Assembly: GCA_030649955.1 (NCBI GenBank)
Contig: JAUSFD010000005.1
Location: 124,001 to 188,000 of the forward strand
From: Candidatus Peregrinibacteria bacterium
GTDB taxonomy: Bacteria; Patescibacteriota; Gracilibacteria; Peribacterales; Peribacteraceae
Direction: 5' to 3'
Length of the DNA: 64,000 nt
In this document: positions 2,485 through 50,205 of the stretch, one piece after another
How positions within the stretch are numbered: position 1 is the first letter of the stretch
How the letters are laid out: each line of letters begins with the position of its first letter
The notes under the pieces: model-generated
What the model was told of the DNA's origin: nothing
Database searches by the model: none
What the model saw: only the letters and a program-made list of their open reading frames with translations
Program-made: the position numbers and the translations under genes

Positions 2485-4551
2485 TCAGTCTACAATCACC
2501 TTCGCATCCAGCACCGTTACCTTGCTGCTATCCACACGCACAGGATTGAGGTCCAATTCGCGGATTCTCGGGCAGTCGGCGACGAGGCGGGAGGTTGCAG
2601 CGATAAGCTTCGCCAGTGATGCGATATCCGATTGCGGTTTGCCGCGCATCCCCAGGAGGATTTTCCAGGACTTGAGCTCCTGCAGCATCCCGTACGCTTC
2701 CTCTTCAGAAACGGGCGCGATGCGGAACGTGCGATCACCGAAGAGCTCCGTGTAGATGCCCCCGAGTCCCACCATGATGAGCGGACCGAAGGTGGGGTCG
2801 CGCAGCGAGCCGACGATGAATTCGTTCCCTGCGGGCAAGAATTGCTGAATGAGCACGCCGTTCACATTCGCATTCGGTGCATGCTTCTTCGCATTCTTCA
2901 GAATTTCCTTGAATGCTGCCTTCACTTCCCTTTCGTTCTGCAGATTTGCCCGCACTCCGCCAATGTCCGTCTTGTGCACGATTGCCGGTGAGCTCACCTT
3001 TGCGATCACCGGGTAATCGATCTCCTTTGCGAGTCGTACAGCATCCGCTTCATTTGTCGCAACTGCTTGCTTCGGGATCGGCAGTCGGTAGAGAGAGAAG
3101 AGTTTCTCCGTCGTTGTTTCGGAGACAAGGCCATTCACCTTCTTCAGGAGTTTCTCCGCATCATTCGCTGTGCCGCTGCGCTTCATAATCACCTTCGGCT
3201 TGCGTGCGCCATTGGTTTTCAGGAGAGCGCGCATTGCGTGGATTGCCGCTTCGGGACTGGGGAAATTGGGTATCCCTCCCCCTTGGAGCGTCCGCACAGC
3301 ATCGCGCACATGGTCACCTCCCATGAAGCTCGTGACGATGGGAATCAAGCGATGCTTCTTCTGTGCTTCGAGGAGAATCCCCGCGACCGCCTTCGCAGGT
3401 GTCATGATCTGCGGTGTGAGGACCACAATGATGCCATCGACACCCTTGTCCTTTGCACACGCAGAAATTGCAGCAGCGTACCGATCTTCCAGTGCATCGC
3501 CCAGGACATCGATCGGATTCTCCGCACTCGCTGCAGGGGGCAGGCCCTGCTTCAGCGCTTCCTTCAGCTTCGGCGTGAGGGGTGCGAGTACGAGTCCCTC
3601 CCGCTCCGCAGCATCGGTTGCGAGTATCCCCGGTCCGCCGGCGTTCGTAATGACGACGATGTTCGGCGAGAGGAGCGGCGGCTGGTGCGCGAGCGTCCGC
3701 AGCATGTCGAGGAATTCTCCAGAAGAGGACGCTCGAAGGATTCCCGTGTCCCGGCACGCCGCATCGATCGCCGCATCGGATCCCGCGAGCGCTCCCGTGT
3801 GTGACGAGACCGCGTGCTTCCCGCGCTGCGACACTCCCGACTTGATGAGTACGATCGGCTTCGTCTTCGCGATCCGCCTTGCGATCGTCAGGAATCGCTC
3901 CCCATCTTTCACACTCTCGAGATACATCCCAATGACCTTCGTCTCTTCATCACCCTCACAGATTTCGAGGAAATCACACTCATCCATTGCCGTCTTGTTC
4001 CCCATGCTCACGATGAGCGAGAACCCGAGGCCTAAATCCTTCGAGGCATCCATGATCGCAACGGCAACTGCCCCAGACTGGCTTAGGAGAGCGATATTTC
4101 CAGCATCCGGCAGATCCTCCGTGAACGACGCATTGAGCCCGATGGACGGCCGCAGGTACCCCAGGCAGTTCGGTCCGATGAGCTGCATCTTGGCTCGCTC
4201 CACGATCTTGAGGAGCGATGCCTCCTGTTTCTTCCCTTCCTCTGTTCCCGTTTCTCCAAATCCTGCAGTGATGACGACGAGTGTCTTCACCCCTTTCTTC
4301 GCGCACTCCTCCGCGAGGGGGACGACGGTCGGCGTGGGAGTGACGATCACCGCTAACTCCACAGGTCCGGGGATTTCTCCAACGGAAGTGAATGCCTGCT
4401 TTCCCAGGATCTCCCCGCCCTTTGGGTTCACCGGATGCACCTCGCCGCTGAATCCCTGCGTTAGGAGATTCTTCAAGAGGAAGTGCCCGAGCTTCTTCTC
4501 GTCCGCACTCGCCCCGATGACGGCGACCGACGCAGGGTTGAGGATTCCCAT
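2485..4551 (-). CDS. ADP-forming acetate--CoA ligase (fused alpha and beta)
   Basis: A 688-residue ADP-forming acyl-CoA synthetase: acyl-CoA + ADP + Pi gives acid + CoA + ATP. The N-terminal CoA-binding domain starts SVAVIGASADEKKLGHFLL. The phosphohistidine loop is in SSHTGALAGSDAAI. The C-terminal ATP-grasp domain begins near LFSLYRLPIPKQA and contains VIAKVSSPAIVHKTDIGGV. Fused length is normal for the family. With KorAB encoded 2 kb away it would allow substrate-level phosphorylation from 2-oxoacids. Acetate as main substrate is the usual assumption and is not shown here. No SD or clear -10 box precedes the ATG at 4551. Confidence 0.93.
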   Translation of the reverse strand: MGILNPASVAVIGASADEKKLGHFLLKNLLTQGFSGEVHPVNPKGGEILGKQAFTSVGEIPGPVELAVIVTPTPTVVPLAEECAKKGVKTLVVITAGFGETGTEEGKKQEASLLKIVERAKMQLIGPNCLGYLRPSIGLNASFTEDLPDAGNIALLSQSGAVAVAIMDASKDLGLGFSLIVSMGNKTAMDECDFLEICEGDEETKVIGMYLESVKDGERFLTIARRIAKTKPIVLIKSGVSQRGKHAVSSHTGALAGSDAAIDAACRDTGILRASSSGEFLDMLRTLAHQPPLLSPNIVVITNAGGPGILATDAAEREGLVLAPLTPKLKEALKQGLPPAASAENPIDVLGDALEDRYAAAISACAKDKGVDGIIVVLTPQIMTPAKAVAGILLEAQKKHRLIPIVTSFMGGDHVRDAVRTLQGGGIPNFPSPEAAIHAMRALLKTNGARKPKVIMKRSGTANDAEKLLKKVNGLVSETTTEKLFSLYRLPIPKQAVATNEADAVRLAKEIDYPVIAKVSSPAIVHKTDIGGVRANLQNEREVKAAFKEILKNAKKHAPNANVNGVLIQQFLPAGNEFIVGSLRDPTFGPLIMVGLGGIYTELFGDRTFRIAPVSEEEAYGMLQELKSWKILLGMRGKPQSDIASLAKLIAATSRLVADCPRIRELDLNPVRVDSSKVTVLDAKVIVD

Positions 4552-40428: not shown

Positions 40429-41682
40429 TCAGTTACTGCTCGAGCTCCCTCCTCCCGCGCAGCGGACGCAGGAGCCCGCGCAGGCAGTATTGCCGCACGC
40501 GTTCCCTGTTTGCACGGGGCCGGTGAATCCTCCGTGTCCATCATCGCAATCAACAACGAATTCGTGACACTTGTTATCAAAGAATCCTTTCGTGCAGGAT
40601 GCATTATTCGGGCAATTCTGGAATGCATCATTCCCCTGTGACGATGAGGTGCTGCTGGATGACGATGAACGCTTCTTCTCTGGCTTGCACTTCGCAGAAC
40701 AGCCATCGCCATTCACCCTGTTCCCATCGTCGCACTCCTCGTTCGCCTCTCTCTCGAGTACTCCGTTGCCGCAGAGCAGTGAGCACTGGCTGGGGTGCCC
40801 AAATCCGTTGTCGCAGTAGTACCCGAATTCCGTCTTGCAGCGCGCGCATCCGTCTCCGTTCACTGCATTCTGGTCGTCGCACTGCTCCGGTGAACCCTCT
40901 TCAACGATGCCGTTGCCGCAGAGAGCGGTGCATACACTCGGTTGCTGAGTATCGCCGTTGTTGGGCTGATCGCAGATGAATCCGCGTTGCACTCTGCAGA
41001 CCGGAGCACACCCGTCTCCTGCTTGGAGGTTGCCGTCATCGCACTCTTCAGCGGCATCGACATCGAGCTTCCCATTGCCGCAGAGGAGCGTGCACGCGTT
41101 CCCTTCGCAAATGTAGCCCGGCTTCGTTTTGCAGTTCTGGTTGCACCCTTCCGCCATACTCGCAATCGCGATATCGCACTGCTCGCCAATGTGCACATCC
41201 ACGGTACCGTTCCCGCACATCTTCGTGCAGAGACTCCGGGGACCCAGAACTGAGTCCGTATTGGGATCGACCCCGGGATTCACGCACCGCCACCCGAAGG
41301 GTACTTTGCACTGTGGGGAGCATCCGTCGCCTTTTGCTCTGTTCCCATCATCGCACTGCTCTCCTGCGATCCTCTGAGGCACGCCATTCCCGCAGGTTTC
41401 GGTGCAAATGCTCCGTTGGTCGCCCCGTCCGTCCTGCTGTTCGCAAGTATAACCAGGCTCTACTTTGCACTTGTTGCTGCAGCCATCCTTATCACTCGTG
41501 TTCCCATCATCGCACTGTTCTGCTGCACGCAGATTCAGAACACCGTTCCCGCAGAGCTGCGCGGGACTGTTCTGTGCTTGCGCGGCGAAGACGCCGTCGA
41601 GCCTCCCCGTTGCGGAGAGCGTGATGACCACGGCCATACACGAACCGCCGAGGACGAGCGAGAGGGACTGTGTACGTGTCAT
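40429..41682 (-). CDS. secreted DUF4215-type cysteine-rich repeat protein
   Basis: A 417-residue secreted protein. After a signal peptide (LVLGGSCMAVVITLSA) come six tandem repeats of about 37-50 residues with the pattern CGNGxxxxxEQCDDGN...GDGCSxxCxxExGYxC (the myxococcal-type cysteine-rich repeat). The third repeat is degenerate (EQCDIAIASMAEGC). A Ser-rich linker and a final Cys-rich block (CPNNASCTKGFFDNKC, CGNTACAGSCVRCAGGGSSSSN) end the protein. Function is unknown; such proteins are extracellular and disulfide-rich. TATACT with TGGCAA lies about 26 bp before the ATG, so this gene has a leader. Confidence 0.85.
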   Translation of the reverse strand: MTRTQSLSLVLGGSCMAVVITLSATGRLDGVFAAQAQNSPAQLCGNGVLNLRAAEQCDDGNTSDKDGCSNKCKVEPGYTCEQQDGRGDQRSICTETCGNGVPQRIAGEQCDDGNRAKGDGCSPQCKVPFGWRCVNPGVDPNTDSVLGPRSLCTKMCGNGTVDVHIGEQCDIAIASMAEGCNQNCKTKPGYICEGNACTLLCGNGKLDVDAAEECDDGNLQAGDGCAPVCRVQRGFICDQPNNGDTQQPSVCTALCGNGIVEEGSPEQCDDQNAVNGDGCARCKTEFGYYCDNGFGHPSQCSLLCGNGVLEREANEECDDGNRVNGDGCSAKCKPEKKRSSSSSSTSSSQGNDAFQNCPNNASCTKGFFDNKCHEFVVDCDDGHGGFTGPVQTGNACGNTACAGSCVRCAGGGSSSSN

Positions 41683-43924: not shown

Positions 43925-46348
43925 TCAGACTTTCTTCACTCCAAACAACCCCAACCGCTCCGCTACTGGCATCGTGGCGATCTTCCTGAGCATCCACCGC
44001 GTCACGGTGATCGCGGAGAACATCGAGAGGAGGACGCCCATGCCCAGGGTGATGGCGAAGCCGCGGACGATGGAGGTGCCGACGAGGAAGAGGATTGTGC
44101 ACGTGATGATCGTCGAGACGTTGCCGTCGCGGATGGCGGGCCAGGCGTGCTGGAAGCTCGTTTCGACTGCGGTCTTCATCAGCTTCCCCTTCCGCAGTTC
44201 TTCCTTCATGCGCTCGAAGACGAGGACGTTCGCATCCACGGCCATGCCGATCGAGAGGATGATGCCGGCCATGCCCGCGAGGGTGAGGACGACGTAGGTA
44301 TCCGAGAGGAGGAAGAGCGGGAGCTTCAGAATCGCGAAGAAGATGACGGCGTAGATGAGGAGCGCTCCGGAGGCGATAACGCCGAGCAGCCGGTAGACGG
44401 CGATCAAGTAGACGATGAGGAGAAGTACTCCGAGGATGGCTGCCTGCAGTGACGTCTGGAGGGCAGTATCGCCGAGGGTTGCTTCGATCGTCTGCTGACC
44501 TACCAGGTGGATGGGCGCGGGGATGGCGCCGGTGTTCAGGTCCTGGGCCAAGCGACGAGCCTCCTCGAAGTTCTGGCTACCGGTGATCACCGCCGTGCCG
44601 CCGCTGATCTCCTGCTGCACGACCGGAGCGGAGACGAGCTCGCCGCCGACGAAGATGGCAATCGACTTTCCGATGTTCTTCTTCGTGAGTTCCTGGAACA
44701 GCCTGCCGCCCTCCTCGTCGAAGTTGATCTGCACCACGGGGATATTCGTCACGGGGTCGAGCGTCACCGCGGCGGAGCGGAAGTGCTTGCCGTCGAGCGT
44801 CGTGTCCTTCCAGCCCGTCGGTTCGAGCGAGAAGAAGAGTATGCGCAGAGTGGAGACCTCTTCCGTCGTCGTCACCTTTCCCGCCTGCAGGCGAGCCACC
44901 AGCTCCTGCGCGCGCGTCGCAGCGCCTGATCCCGTGATGACGAGCTCATCGAAGTTCGCGTTGTCCGGACTCGTGGATGCAGCCTTGTCTACACGAATGA
45001 GGTGGTAGCCGAAGGGAGTCTCTACAGGATCGCTGACGGAGCCTGCTGGCTGCGTGAAGGCGACGGTCTCGAACGCAGGGACCATGGTCCCGCGGGTGAA
45101 CGTGCCCAGGTTTCCACCTTCTGCGCGAGAGGGACCATCGGACTCCTGTCGCGCGAGCTGTGTGAAGTTCTCCCCCTTCGCGACACGCGCCTTGAGGGCC
45201 TGTGCCTTCGTGAGGGCTTCATCCTTCGTACGCGTGACCGTTGCCGGTGCTTCCTGTGCGTCCTTGTAGGAGACGAGGATGTGGCTCGCGGCGACTTCCT
45301 GGCGACCGGGATTGAGGATGCGCAGGAAGAGTACGCGTGCGGAGCCATCCGAGAGTGTCACCGGTTTCAAGTCGCCCGGTTGCATGCCGCGGAGCGTCGA
45401 GATGATCGTTGGCGTGATCTTCTCATCCAGAAGAGTCTCCTCATTGTACTTGTACGAGAGCCCCTGCTCCGTTGTCGACAGGACGGAGAATGCTTTGGGT
45501 GCCTCATTGATCACGCGCCCGGTCTGCGTGGGAGGATTCAGGACTTCTGCGAGGAACACGCCCGGAATCTCCCGTTCCTTCACACTCCCATCCGGCGCCT
45601 GCTCCGCGGCGGTCACACTGCCCTCTATCTTGCGCACCTCGCCGGGTTTCGTGGTCCATATGCTGTCGAGCCCGTCTGGGAGCGCGTCGCGGAAGTAGGA
45701 GCGGGTGTCGATGTAGCTGATGCCGAGCTCATCGCTCAAGTCCTGCCCCAGGTCCTGGAGCGTGATGCCGCTCTGCCCCTTCGTGATCTGGTCGTAGCTG
45801 GCCTGCGCTTTCGTGCGCACGCCCGCCGTGAAGTCCTCCGTCACCTCCGTGAACTCCTCCTTGAACTCCAACTGGATGGTCTTCCCCACAGTCGCAATAC
45901 ACTCCTGCGTGTCGATGATGCCCGGACACTCCACGAAGAGGTGCTTCTCTGCACCGATGTACGACGGGGTGATGGTCGCTTCACTGACGCCGAGCGCGTT
46001 GATGCGTCGCTCGATCACGGTGCGGATGGCCTCCACGATGGAGCGCTGCTGCTCCTGGATACTGAACTCCTCCGCTTGGATTTTTGCGATCTCCTCTGCG
46101 GAGGCGCCCTGCTTCTCAAGGGTTTCGCGCTCCTGCTTCAGTCGCGCGAGCTGCTCCTCCATCTCCTGCTCACTGATGCGGAAATCCAGCTGTGTTCCCC
46201 CCGCGAGATCGAGTCCCAGGTGGAGCATTGGTGCCCGGAGGAACCCCGGTGCCCAGCCCTTCCACGCATCGGGAAGTGCGATGATGACGATGAGCACGGC
46301 GACGAGCACCGTGAGCACTGACCAGACGGGGGAGCGGCGCGCAGACAT
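43925..46348 (-). CDS. secD: SecD with an embedded parvulin-type peptidyl-prolyl isomerase domain
   Basis: An 807-residue membrane protein of the Sec export machinery. TM1 is at about 10-27; the first periplasmic domain has LGLDLAGGTQLDF, ERRINALGVSEATI and VECPGIID. Residues about 351-456 are a complete PpiC/parvulin domain: ASHILVSYKDA, GENFTQLARQESDGPS, GGNLGTFTRGTMVPAFE, VSDPVETPFGYHLIRV. SecD sequence resumes with FDEEGGRLFQELTKKNIGKSIAIFV and five TM helices with GMAVDANVLVFERMKEELRKGK. Normal bacterial SecD has no such domain. No secF lies next to it. It is 3 bp downstream of a SecD-like lipoprotein gene. Confidence 0.92.
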   Translation of the reverse strand: MSARRSPVWSVLTVLVAVLIVIIALPDAWKGWAPGFLRAPMLHLGLDLAGGTQLDFRISEQEMEEQLARLKQERETLEKQGASAEEIAKIQAEEFSIQEQQRSIVEAIRTVIERRINALGVSEATITPSYIGAEKHLFVECPGIIDTQECIATVGKTIQLEFKEEFTEVTEDFTAGVRTKAQASYDQITKGQSGITLQDLGQDLSDELGISYIDTRSYFRDALPDGLDSIWTTKPGEVRKIEGSVTAAEQAPDGSVKEREIPGVFLAEVLNPPTQTGRVINEAPKAFSVLSTTEQGLSYKYNEETLLDEKITPTIISTLRGMQPGDLKPVTLSDGSARVLFLRILNPGRQEVAASHILVSYKDAQEAPATVTRTKDEALTKAQALKARVAKGENFTQLARQESDGPSRAEGGNLGTFTRGTMVPAFETVAFTQPAGSVSDPVETPFGYHLIRVDKAASTSPDNANFDELVITGSGAATRAQELVARLQAGKVTTTEEVSTLRILFFSLEPTGWKDTTLDGKHFRSAAVTLDPVTNIPVVQINFDEEGGRLFQELTKKNIGKSIAIFVGGELVSAPVVQQEISGGTAVITGSQNFEEARRLAQDLNTGAIPAPIHLVGQQTIEATLGDTALQTSLQAAILGVLLLIVYLIAVYRLLGVIASGALLIYAVIFFAILKLPLFLLSDTYVVLTLAGMAGIILSIGMAVDANVLVFERMKEELRKGKLMKTAVETSFQHAWPAIRDGNVSTIITCTILFLVGTSIVRGFAITLGMGVLLSMFSAITVTRWMLRKIATMPVAERLGLFGVKKV

Positions 46349-46351
46349 TGC

Positions 46352-47011
46352 TTACGTAGAGGGAGTGAATGTCACGCGGAGACCCACGTTCACGTCGTCG
46401 GCGAAGATCTCTGCCATCTCCGCGGAGGGAATATCCGTAATGATGATGTCATCCTTCACCTCCGCGGACTCGACGGTGAGCTTGGAGACCAACTTCTCGC
46501 GAACGAAGAGGCCGATGGACTTGCCCTTATTCTCCTTGAACACCTTGCCCATGATCGTCCTCCCCTCTGGGGTAAAGAGCAGCTGCACGGAGCCCTTCCC
46601 TCCCTCATCCTTCCCCGCGATGACCCACTGGAGGTGCTTTTGCGTCAGGCCCGTCTCTGAAAAGCCGCCGTGCCCCTCCACGACAATGTCTGCTTTCTCT
46701 GTTGGTGCCTCCTGCATGACGCGGAGGCTGAAGGGGGCGATGAGTTCTGCCGTGAGTGCATCAGCCGCTTCACTGCTGTCGATCTCCAACTTGAGAGTCA
46801 CCTCATCATCGCTGACTTGCACCTTCTTATCAGAGAGGTTCGCGGCGAGGTGCGAAAGCCTGCGCTCGACGACGCGCATGCTCGCGGCGATGAGTTCGTC
46901 TCGCTGCTCTGGAGTATCCGTCCTAATGGCGAGCTTGTAGTACACGACTGTGGATCCACCGCATGCTGCGAGGAGGAGACTCACCGAAAGGAGGGCACCA
47001 AGGCGTTTCAT
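46352..47011 (-). CDS. lipoprotein resembling the SecD periplasmic domain
   Basis: A 219-residue lipoprotein (signal MKRLGALLSVSLLLAAC). Its two halves resemble the SecD first periplasmic region by eye: ASMRVVERRLSHLAAN matches the helix before the P1 sheet, and VQLLFTPEGRTIMGKVFKENKGKSIGLFVREKLVSKLTVESAEVKDDIIIT matches the later base segment. It ends 3 bp before secD, so the two are co-transcribed and may act together at the translocon exit. TAGACT is seven bases before the ATG. The homology needs a profile search. Confidence 0.65.
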   Translation of the reverse strand: MKRLGALLSVSLLLAACGGSTVVYYKLAIRTDTPEQRDELIAASMRVVERRLSHLAANLSDKKVQVSDDEVTLKLEIDSSEAADALTAELIAPFSLRVMQEAPTEKADIVVEGHGGFSETGLTQKHLQWVIAGKDEGGKGSVQLLFTPEGRTIMGKVFKENKGKSIGLFVREKLVSKLTVESAEVKDDIIITDIPSAEMAEIFADDVNVGLRVTFTPST

Positions 47012-47096
47012 TGGGCGAAGTCTAGGGAAATTCTCGGGAGGGCGCAATTGGAAGAATGAAGGTACATTGTGTCTATTTCATCATTGGAGTGGATTT

Positions 47097-49182: not shown

Positions 49183-50205
49183 TCAGTTATTCCATATGTA
49201 CGGCAGCTTCGTTGCATCCCAAGGGACTGATTTCCCGTCCCACGTGTGCGTGCCCGTTGCGATGCTGGGAGGCTTCGAGATATACCTCTCCATCCACTGG
49301 AGCTTGAGGGCTATCGTCGCATTCGTCTGCGCGCGTGCGCGGAAGGCGCTCTCCTGGAGGATGTAGTAGGTCACAGATTCCGCGAGATCTTCGAAGGCGT
49401 CCCACGATGCGTACCCGGAGACGAAGTCGCTCTCCCTTGTATCACTCTTCCGCACGCGCTCCGTGAGCCAGCTGATAGCGTAGAACTCTGCGCTGGGATC
49501 GTCGTTGTAGATGATATCCGCACCATCGCGGAATGCAGAGGTGCCGCTTGCTGGTGTGCCCAGGAGGCAGCCGAGTTCGAAGAAGTGTCCCATCGCTTCG
49601 TGCACGATGAGTGCGCGGAACTCGTCATCGGGGACGGTGCCACTGATGATCACCGTTGATTTCCCCGCGAGGCCGCGGTGCTCTGGCGAGTCGTAGCGGA
49701 CGTAGAAGTTCCGGAGGGAGGGGATGCAATTTGCCGGGAGGAGAGAGAGAACTTCGTTCGCGATCTCCTTGTGTCGTTGCTGAATGCCCACCTGATCCAC
49801 GACCGCGAGGAACGCTCGGGAGGTTACAGAAGAGGAAGACGATGACGATGAGGAAGAGCTCACCTGTGGCGTCTCCTGTGCGAGGACGATCTGTGAAGCT
49901 GCCGCGACCTGGGGGAGAGAACTCCCCAGATTCAGCGGGCGCCAAGCGGTGATGCCCTTCGTCTTCTTCGCTGTGCTCTTCGCCACCGTTGCAGTCACCT
50001 TCGTCTTCTTCGCCACTCTGCGCGATTTCCGGAAGAGCATGTTCCGGGGTGTGGCTGGGTGGGATTCCACGAACCCAGAGCTCGATGTTGCCCTTGCGGC
50101 AGTATCGGTCTGTGCTACGCTCTCGCCGAGGTCGAGAGCGAGTGAGGTACTCGTCAGAGCGATGCCGGCGATGATCAGGACGTTCGCTCTCAAGGGGGGA
50201 GGCAA
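49183..50205 (-). CDS. secreted metallopeptidase-like protein with HExxxH
   Basis: A 340-residue protein with a hydrophobic N-terminus (VLIIAGIALTSTSLAL), a basic stretch, a run of Ser (about 116-126) as a linker, then a domain with HEAMGH (202-207) in FRALIVHEAMGHFFELG. A later FEDLAESVTYYIL (272-276) resembles the ED-x-x-E helix that supplies the third zinc ligand in HExxH peptidases. The first His pair is spaced HExxxH, as in TldD, and not HExxH. The start is TTG 50205, set by a consensus promoter nine bases upstream. Substrate unknown. Confidence 0.65.
   Translation of the reverse strand: MPPPLRANVLIIAGIALTSTSLALDLGESVAQTDTAARATSSSGFVESHPATPRNMLFRKSRRVAKKTKVTATVAKSTAKKTKGITAWRPLNLGSSLPQVAAASQIVLAQETPQVSSSSSSSSSSSVTSRAFLAVVDQVGIQQRHKEIANEVLSLLPANCIPSLRNFYVRYDSPEHRGLAGKSTVIISGTVPDDEFRALIVHEAMGHFFELGCLLGTPASGTSAFRDGADIIYNDDPSAEFYAISWLTERVRKSDTRESDFVSGYASWDAFEDLAESVTYYILQESAFRARAQTNATIALKLQWMERYISKPPSIATGTHTWDGKSVPWDATKLPYIWNN

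Follow-up and report, generated by a model that had tools for sequence, protein, structure and literature searches.

The SecD protein encoded in the analysed window carries a parvulin domain at a defined position within its P1 ectodomain, with a conserved active site; this fusion is conserved across the lineage, and most of these genomes encode no other parvulin. We interpret it as a SurA/PrsA-like parvulin foldase fused into SecD and meeting the chains that leave SecYEG. We consider this reading likely, with a probability of roughly 0.7; isomerase activity, action on translocating chains, and the roles of the two further modules of the insert (A and B, below) are inferred.

The window is a 64-kb stretch of DNA (C28:124001-188000 of the draft genome G000, which comprises 34 contigs) and forms part of a longer contig. 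The secD gene (43925..46348 of the window, minus strand, as are all its features given below) is one uninterrupted open frame encoding 807 amino acids. The product passes the cut-off of the SecD equivalog TIGR01129 (332.2 bits vs. 244.4), and the Pfam domains SecD_1st, SecDF_P1_head, and SecD_SecF_C (PF21760, PF22599, and PF02355, respectively) are all above their cut-offs. According to the full-length AF2 model, which has low confidence there, the first transmembrane helix is formed by residues 8–24 (46277..46327). It is followed by the SecD GG motif LGLDLAGG (residues 44–51, 46196..46219), supported by a weak Sec_GG match and by our alignment A2, where G45, L46, D47, L48, G50, and G51 are invariant, and by SecD_1st, the first segment, or base, of P1 (residues 106–164, 45857..46033, PF21760, 5.9e-12). 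After the base part comes an insert of about 340 residues, and only then the head: a strand–helix–strand linker seen in the AF2 model leads from the parvulin to the P1 head (residues 463–508, 44825..44962), and the head itself (residues 514–611, 44516..44809) matches PF22599 at 1.1e-28. Helices TM2–TM6 (residues 627–791, 43976..44470), delineated by the SecD_SecF_C match at 618–789 and the model helices, contain the VDANVLVFER motif with Asp705, invariant in alignment A2, which we take to be the membrane Asp of the SecD proton path.

The non-insert part of the model matches SecDF 5yhf with Z 20.8 over 399 aligned residues, and the topology of SecD, with TM1 at 8–24 and TM2 starting at 627 in the model, puts the insert outside the membrane. 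The full-length model (pLDDT 77, pTM 0.36) does not fix the predicted placement of the insert relative to the P1 head. The Peribacteria protein is likely a working SecD that has taken a parvulin into its P1 ectodomain; its stimulation of Sec export via the proton-motive force is inferred.

The complete parvulin, referred to as module C (residues 350–460, 44969..45301), is the best supported part of the insert. Pfam Rotamase (PF00639) matches SecD at 356–454 with E-value 6.8e-26 and 91.5 bits, covering profile positions 1–96 of 97, and Rotamase_3 matches at 350–454 with 1.3e-26. The insert was also modelled alone by AF2 from seven Peribacteria sequences, yielding a mean pLDDT of 91.8; in this model the predicted fold of residues 348–455 is Pin1-like (Z 20.4, rmsd 1.5 Å over 108 residues), and the PrsA and SurA domains fit the same residues nearly as well.

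The active-site positions of module C are His356, Asp404, Leu414, Met422, Phe426, Phe446, and His449, and their conservation was assessed on 44 complete SecD-borne parvulin domains. Leu414, Phe426, and Gly447 are retained in all 44, Ser403 and His449 in 42 each, Met422 in 35, and His356 in 38 out of the 41 domains having a residue at this position, while position 404 is occupied by Asp in 28 domains and by Thr, Gln, or Glu in the remainder. Modules A and B do not have the catalytic residues of module C, and hence the pattern of conserved residues in the insert is that of a single functional module beside two non-functional ones, isomerase activity being an inference here. Module C is probably an active prolyl isomerase; this activity, too, is inferred, with no assay behind it. 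Some members of the class (families f97, f108, and f103) retain only degenerate inserts, and catalysis thus seems dispensable in some lineages.

The 340-residue insert as a whole is predicted by the model to consist of three parvulin-like modules, the first two being degenerate. Module A (approximately residues 166–270, 45539..45853), identified by AF2 and hhalign, has no catalytic His; its secondary structure elements are predicted in the parvulin order with pLDDT of about 90. The relation of module A to parvulins is supported by a chain of hhalign comparisons: module A matches module 1 of class relatives (96.9, E-value 1.6e-10), which in turn matches parvulins (96.8, 2.5e-10) and the first module of the Uhrbacteria-type SecD (96.1), the latter being recognized as a parvulin at 99.1. 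Module B (approximately 274–347, 45308..45529) is a shortened parvulin-like module, with the element order strand–helix–strand–helix–strand–strand in the AF2 model. The joint A+B profile aligns end to end with the counterparts from families f102 (95.3) and f97 (94.3), and module B alone is only weakly similar to the parvulin profile (1–7% in hhalign). Hence the parvulin origin of module B, which rests on the fold model and the alignment with relatives, is probable but not shown.

The first claims of the sequence-only reading fare well in this light. A PpiC-type domain at 44981-45298 of the minus strand (SecD residues 351–456) is confirmed by Pfam Rotamase, the predicted fold, and conservation; specifically, the Pfam analysis of residues 340–460 and of the SecD families yielded both Rotamase at 6.8e-26 and the SecD domains. 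Its location, given as between the P1 head and the base segment, also holds, and is refined to the order SecD_1st (base part), insert, head. Two partial pieces resembling parvulin tails, noticed at residues 225–345, are real and belong to the degenerate modules A and B, and the suggestion that more than one isomerase module may have entered SecD is supported by the AF2 model and hhalign. The proposed action of the isomerase on prolyl bonds of emerging chains is plausible, the function being inferred.

The length of the insert, measured from the end of SecD_1st to the start of the P1 head, forms a ladder. This gap is 0–61 residues in most CPR SecD proteins without a parvulin, 130–142 residues where there is one module or the insert has decayed, 202–265 residues in those with two modules, some of them decayed (lengths clustering at about 200–265), and 335–345 residues in those with three modules; a few proteins have gaps of 358–397 residues (a cluster at about 360–400). 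All inserts share one junction, and their lengths rise by roughly one module, which fits a single ancestral insertion site with subsequent gain and decay of modules. Insert length alone is no proof of a module, as in two loci (L009 and L012) an insert of similar length without any parvulin signal is a low-complexity acidic linker. Inserts of 130–260 residues at the same junction, having no intact parvulin, were also observed in the SecD proteins of loci L069, L070, L081, L082, L083, L089, L090, and L098–L100; these appear to be decayed modules, which is the likely explanation, and some lineages among these class members read TGA as an amino acid. The inserts of family f103, a code-25 lineage, match module 1 of relatives at only 74% in hhalign and are left undecided.

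The layout is present in all seven sampled genomes of Peribacterales. In the phylum sample, 91 out of 192 genomes have a parvulin match, and in 24 of them it lies inside the SecD frame (seven from the family, seven from the rest of the class, and ten from other families). In the class sample, a parvulin match is found in 38 out of 60 genomes, and all but one of these have it in the SecD frame; 35 of the 37 were checked on the fetched sequence, and the remaining two (G212 and G220) were inferred, as a SecD/SecF-type match lies in the frame that carries the parvulin match. The match in G196 is weak and below the cut-off. In the 38th genome, G201, the match falls into a lipoprotein resembling the SecD ectodomain. 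The SecD-borne parvulin is the sole one in 35 out of 37 class genomes, G217 and G227 having a free one as well; the only parvulin of the genome studied here is that of SecD.

The fusion also occurs in Uhrbacteria, Magasanikbacteria, and their relatives. When one genome per species was scanned with the parvulin domain, nine of the 80 best loci examined proved to be fusions, all from CPR (six from Peribacteria/Peregrinibacteria and the others from Magasanikbacteria, Uhrbacteria, and one Parcubacteria genome), and the remaining 71 were free parvulins. In some relatives (families f3, f5, f6, and f7 and locus L152) the insert sits within a fused SecDF. One CPR protein of 743 amino acids (L101:730-2958, minus strand), separate from SecD, has a single likely membrane anchor along with a pair of parvulin domains and resembles PpiD and SurA. 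No fusion was seen among the listed matches of a BLAST search with the whole protein in 343 genomes of other phyla, where the SecD matches end before the insert; this set combined 46 genomes owning a close parvulin with 149 and 150 genomes from the phyla of Halonatronum and Magnetospirillum, respectively, two being counted twice, and only listed rows were considered. Thus the earlier statement that no standard SecD with this layout is known holds for Bacillota, Pseudomonadota, and other sampled non-CPR genomes, but within this CPR class the layout is the rule.

Phylogenetic trees do not separate a single gain followed by losses from separate gains in two lineages. The tree of parvulin domains (103 rows, 119 columns) is too short to tell one origin from several. 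On the tree of the SecD core, the presence of a strong parvulin is clustered, requiring seven changes compared to 23 in shuffles; this is a quick tree only, and L071, L066, L072, and other rows of family f100 were badly sliced due to extra insertions, producing false long branches.

The secD gene adjoins folB and a lipoprotein gene. The latter (46352..47047, minus strand) lies directly upstream, with three bases separating its stop codon from the start of secD, and encodes a protein that resembles SecD P1 (PF22599 at 2.2e-5, below the cut-off) and has neither the membrane bundle nor a parvulin; its likely start is M13 near 47011, and the lipobox is LAAC. This gene precedes secD in all seven family genomes and in additional Peribacteria loci, and no separate gene of this kind turned up in the rest of the class sample. 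Two further lipoproteins, L102:747-2168 (plus strand) in G177 and L206:1018-2415 (minus strand) in G201, combine parvulin modules with P1-type flanks, again without a membrane bundle. In L102 the P1 head profile exceeds its cut-off, and the P1 parts of L206 were read by eye only. Hence a detached lipoprotein form of the P1 ectodomain, with or without a parvulin, likely exists in several lineages.

The only SecD found in the genome is accompanied by one retained SecF (G000:C11:49444-50316, 257 bits, above the cut-off), encoded on a different contig. At L204:1591-2892 and 2930-3949 (both minus strand) secF of this genome is seen to adjoin the trigger factor gene, apart from secD. The one cyclophilin of this genome is a predicted exported lipoprotein, and the SecD parvulin is thus not the sole extracytoplasmic prolyl isomerase. 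Elsewhere in the window, 40429-41682 (minus strand) encodes an exported protein with CGNG...EQCDDGN...GDGCS repeats and serine-rich stretches, and the product of 49183-50205 (minus strand) contains a long run of serines.

The function we propose builds on data from other bacteria. The P1 domain of SecD is believed to bind the chain as it comes out and to move in step with the flow of protons (PMC8669966, PMC9987972). The holo-translocon of E. coli is a binding partner of SurA, and in five out of five AlphaFold models the P1 and P2 PPIase domains of SurA are docked on the P1 head of SecD in its extended I form (PMC9987972). In the Peribacteria protein, insertion at the passage from the P1 base to the head would place the catalytic parvulin beside the head thought to bind the emerging chain. 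A chain leaving SecYEG would be bound by the parvulin module, its prolyl bonds would be isomerized, and its back-sliding would be hindered; the degenerate modules A and B may serve as a spacer or as a chain-holding surface, as is thought for the inactive parvulin domain of SurA. The fusion would replace free SurA, PrsA, or PpiD in reduced genomes, so that each export motor has one foldase tied to it. An outer membrane is believed to be missing from most CPR bacteria, and so the task of the fused foldase may resemble that of PrsA more than it resembles delivery to BAM.

A bolder reading is that the swings of SecDF, powered by protons, carry the P1 head and the fused foldase along together, and a single protein would then pull, isomerize, and hand over each chain. 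The motor coupling is inferred, and we offer this version only tentatively, the odds being clearly against it. If true, it would be a foldase coupled to the proton-motive force, and it would back the docking of SurA on the P1 head of E. coli SecD as a conserved export step, frozen as a gene fusion.

Among the alternatives, the one that survives best is that the insert works not as an enzyme but as a chaperone or docking arm, the conserved active site being a binding groove for an unfolded chain or a partner, e.g., the adjacent P1-like lipoprotein. This remains possible: two out of three modules are degenerate, and relatives with degenerate modules only still keep an insert of 130–220 residues. 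Moreover, the parvulin domain of PpiD and the first one of SurA are inactive, and both proteins show that parvulin domains can act as chaperones without needing isomerase activity. However, module C keeps both catalytic His residues and the hydrophobic pocket in nearly all SecD-borne copies, whereas these features are gone from modules A and B, which is the pattern expected with selection for catalysis in one module. A second alternative, that this SecD no longer serves SecYEG and has turned into another RND-type device, might be suggested by the position of secD next to folB and the lipoprotein gene, with secF not adjacent but on another contig by the trigger factor gene; it is very improbable, since this is the sole SecD found and one SecF is retained, the GG and VDANVLVFER motifs are invariant, and relatives have the same insert in a fused SecDF. 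Finally, an assembly chimera or misjoined genes, to which the unusual layout and the draft state of the genome might point, can be practically ruled out, because the search of CPR genomes revealed the same junctions in seven family genomes, about 30 further members of the class, and over ten genomes from other classes, all independent assemblies, so that the fusion is neither chance nor chimera.

Returning to the preferred reading of a foldase fused into SecD, we found no description of a SecD–parvulin fusion in the open-access literature searched, most subscription papers not being covered; the architecture may already be recorded in automatic domain databases. SecD and parvulins are each known, while the combination, the module ladder, and the lineage-wide presence appear to be new. 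It has not been settled how a chain that leaves SecYEG encounters a foldase, and in E. coli AlphaFold docking alone places the parvulin pair of SurA on the P1 head of SecD (PMC9987972). Two machines that are separate in E. coli, and apparently dock there, are joined in one CPR protein; a SurA-like parvulin pair built into the same part of SecD in CPR provides independent evolutionary support for the SurA–SecD contact, and the fusion offers a one-chain construct for testing it. The very small genomes of this class, mostly having no other parvulin, may cover the folding of exported proteins via the fusion.

The Peribacteria protein shares with known SecD and SecDF proteins (TIGR01129; T. thermophilus 3aqp and 5yhf; D. 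radiodurans 5xan) the GG motif, the P1 base and head, the six-helix RND bundle, and VDANVLVFER, and differs from them by the three-module parvulin-like insert, about 340 residues long, that separates SecD_1st from the P1 head. By fold, module C is closest to Pin1-type parvulins (rmsd 0.9 Å over 106 residues to 1pin), and it also has the TRTK-E-A motif ahead of helix 1; however, there is no WW domain. The phosphate loop of Pin1 has an arginine pair, which is absent from the sequence of the SecD parvulin, and hence no phospho-specificity is expected. PrsA (6vj4, 4wo7) and PpiD are, similarly, membrane-tethered extracytoplasmic parvulins tied to Sec export, and the module C region is 43% identical to B. 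anthracis PrsA over 93 residues; but the former is a lipoprotein, the latter spans the membrane once, and neither belongs to SecD.

The likeness to SurA (1m5y) concerns the tandem of parvulin domains, the first degenerate and the second with an intact active site and known to be active, in a protein acting at the translocon exit. When a profile of the two-module SecD proteins, built from 11 proteins, was searched against PDB, SurA was the first match (2.1e-33), with both its parvulin domains (171–369) covered in order, and SecDF was also matched over the P1 part. The SurA-type tandem is thus met by the two-module relatives, while in the SecD of the window the first modules are degenerate. No match to the N-terminal chaperone region of SurA (SurA_N families) was observed in the 807-residue SecD at E-values up to 1, and for this reason we do not call the insert SurA. 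SurA occurs free in the periplasm and has N- and C-terminal chaperone regions of its own, whereas the Peribacteria SecD holds the parvulin part only, inside a membrane protein.
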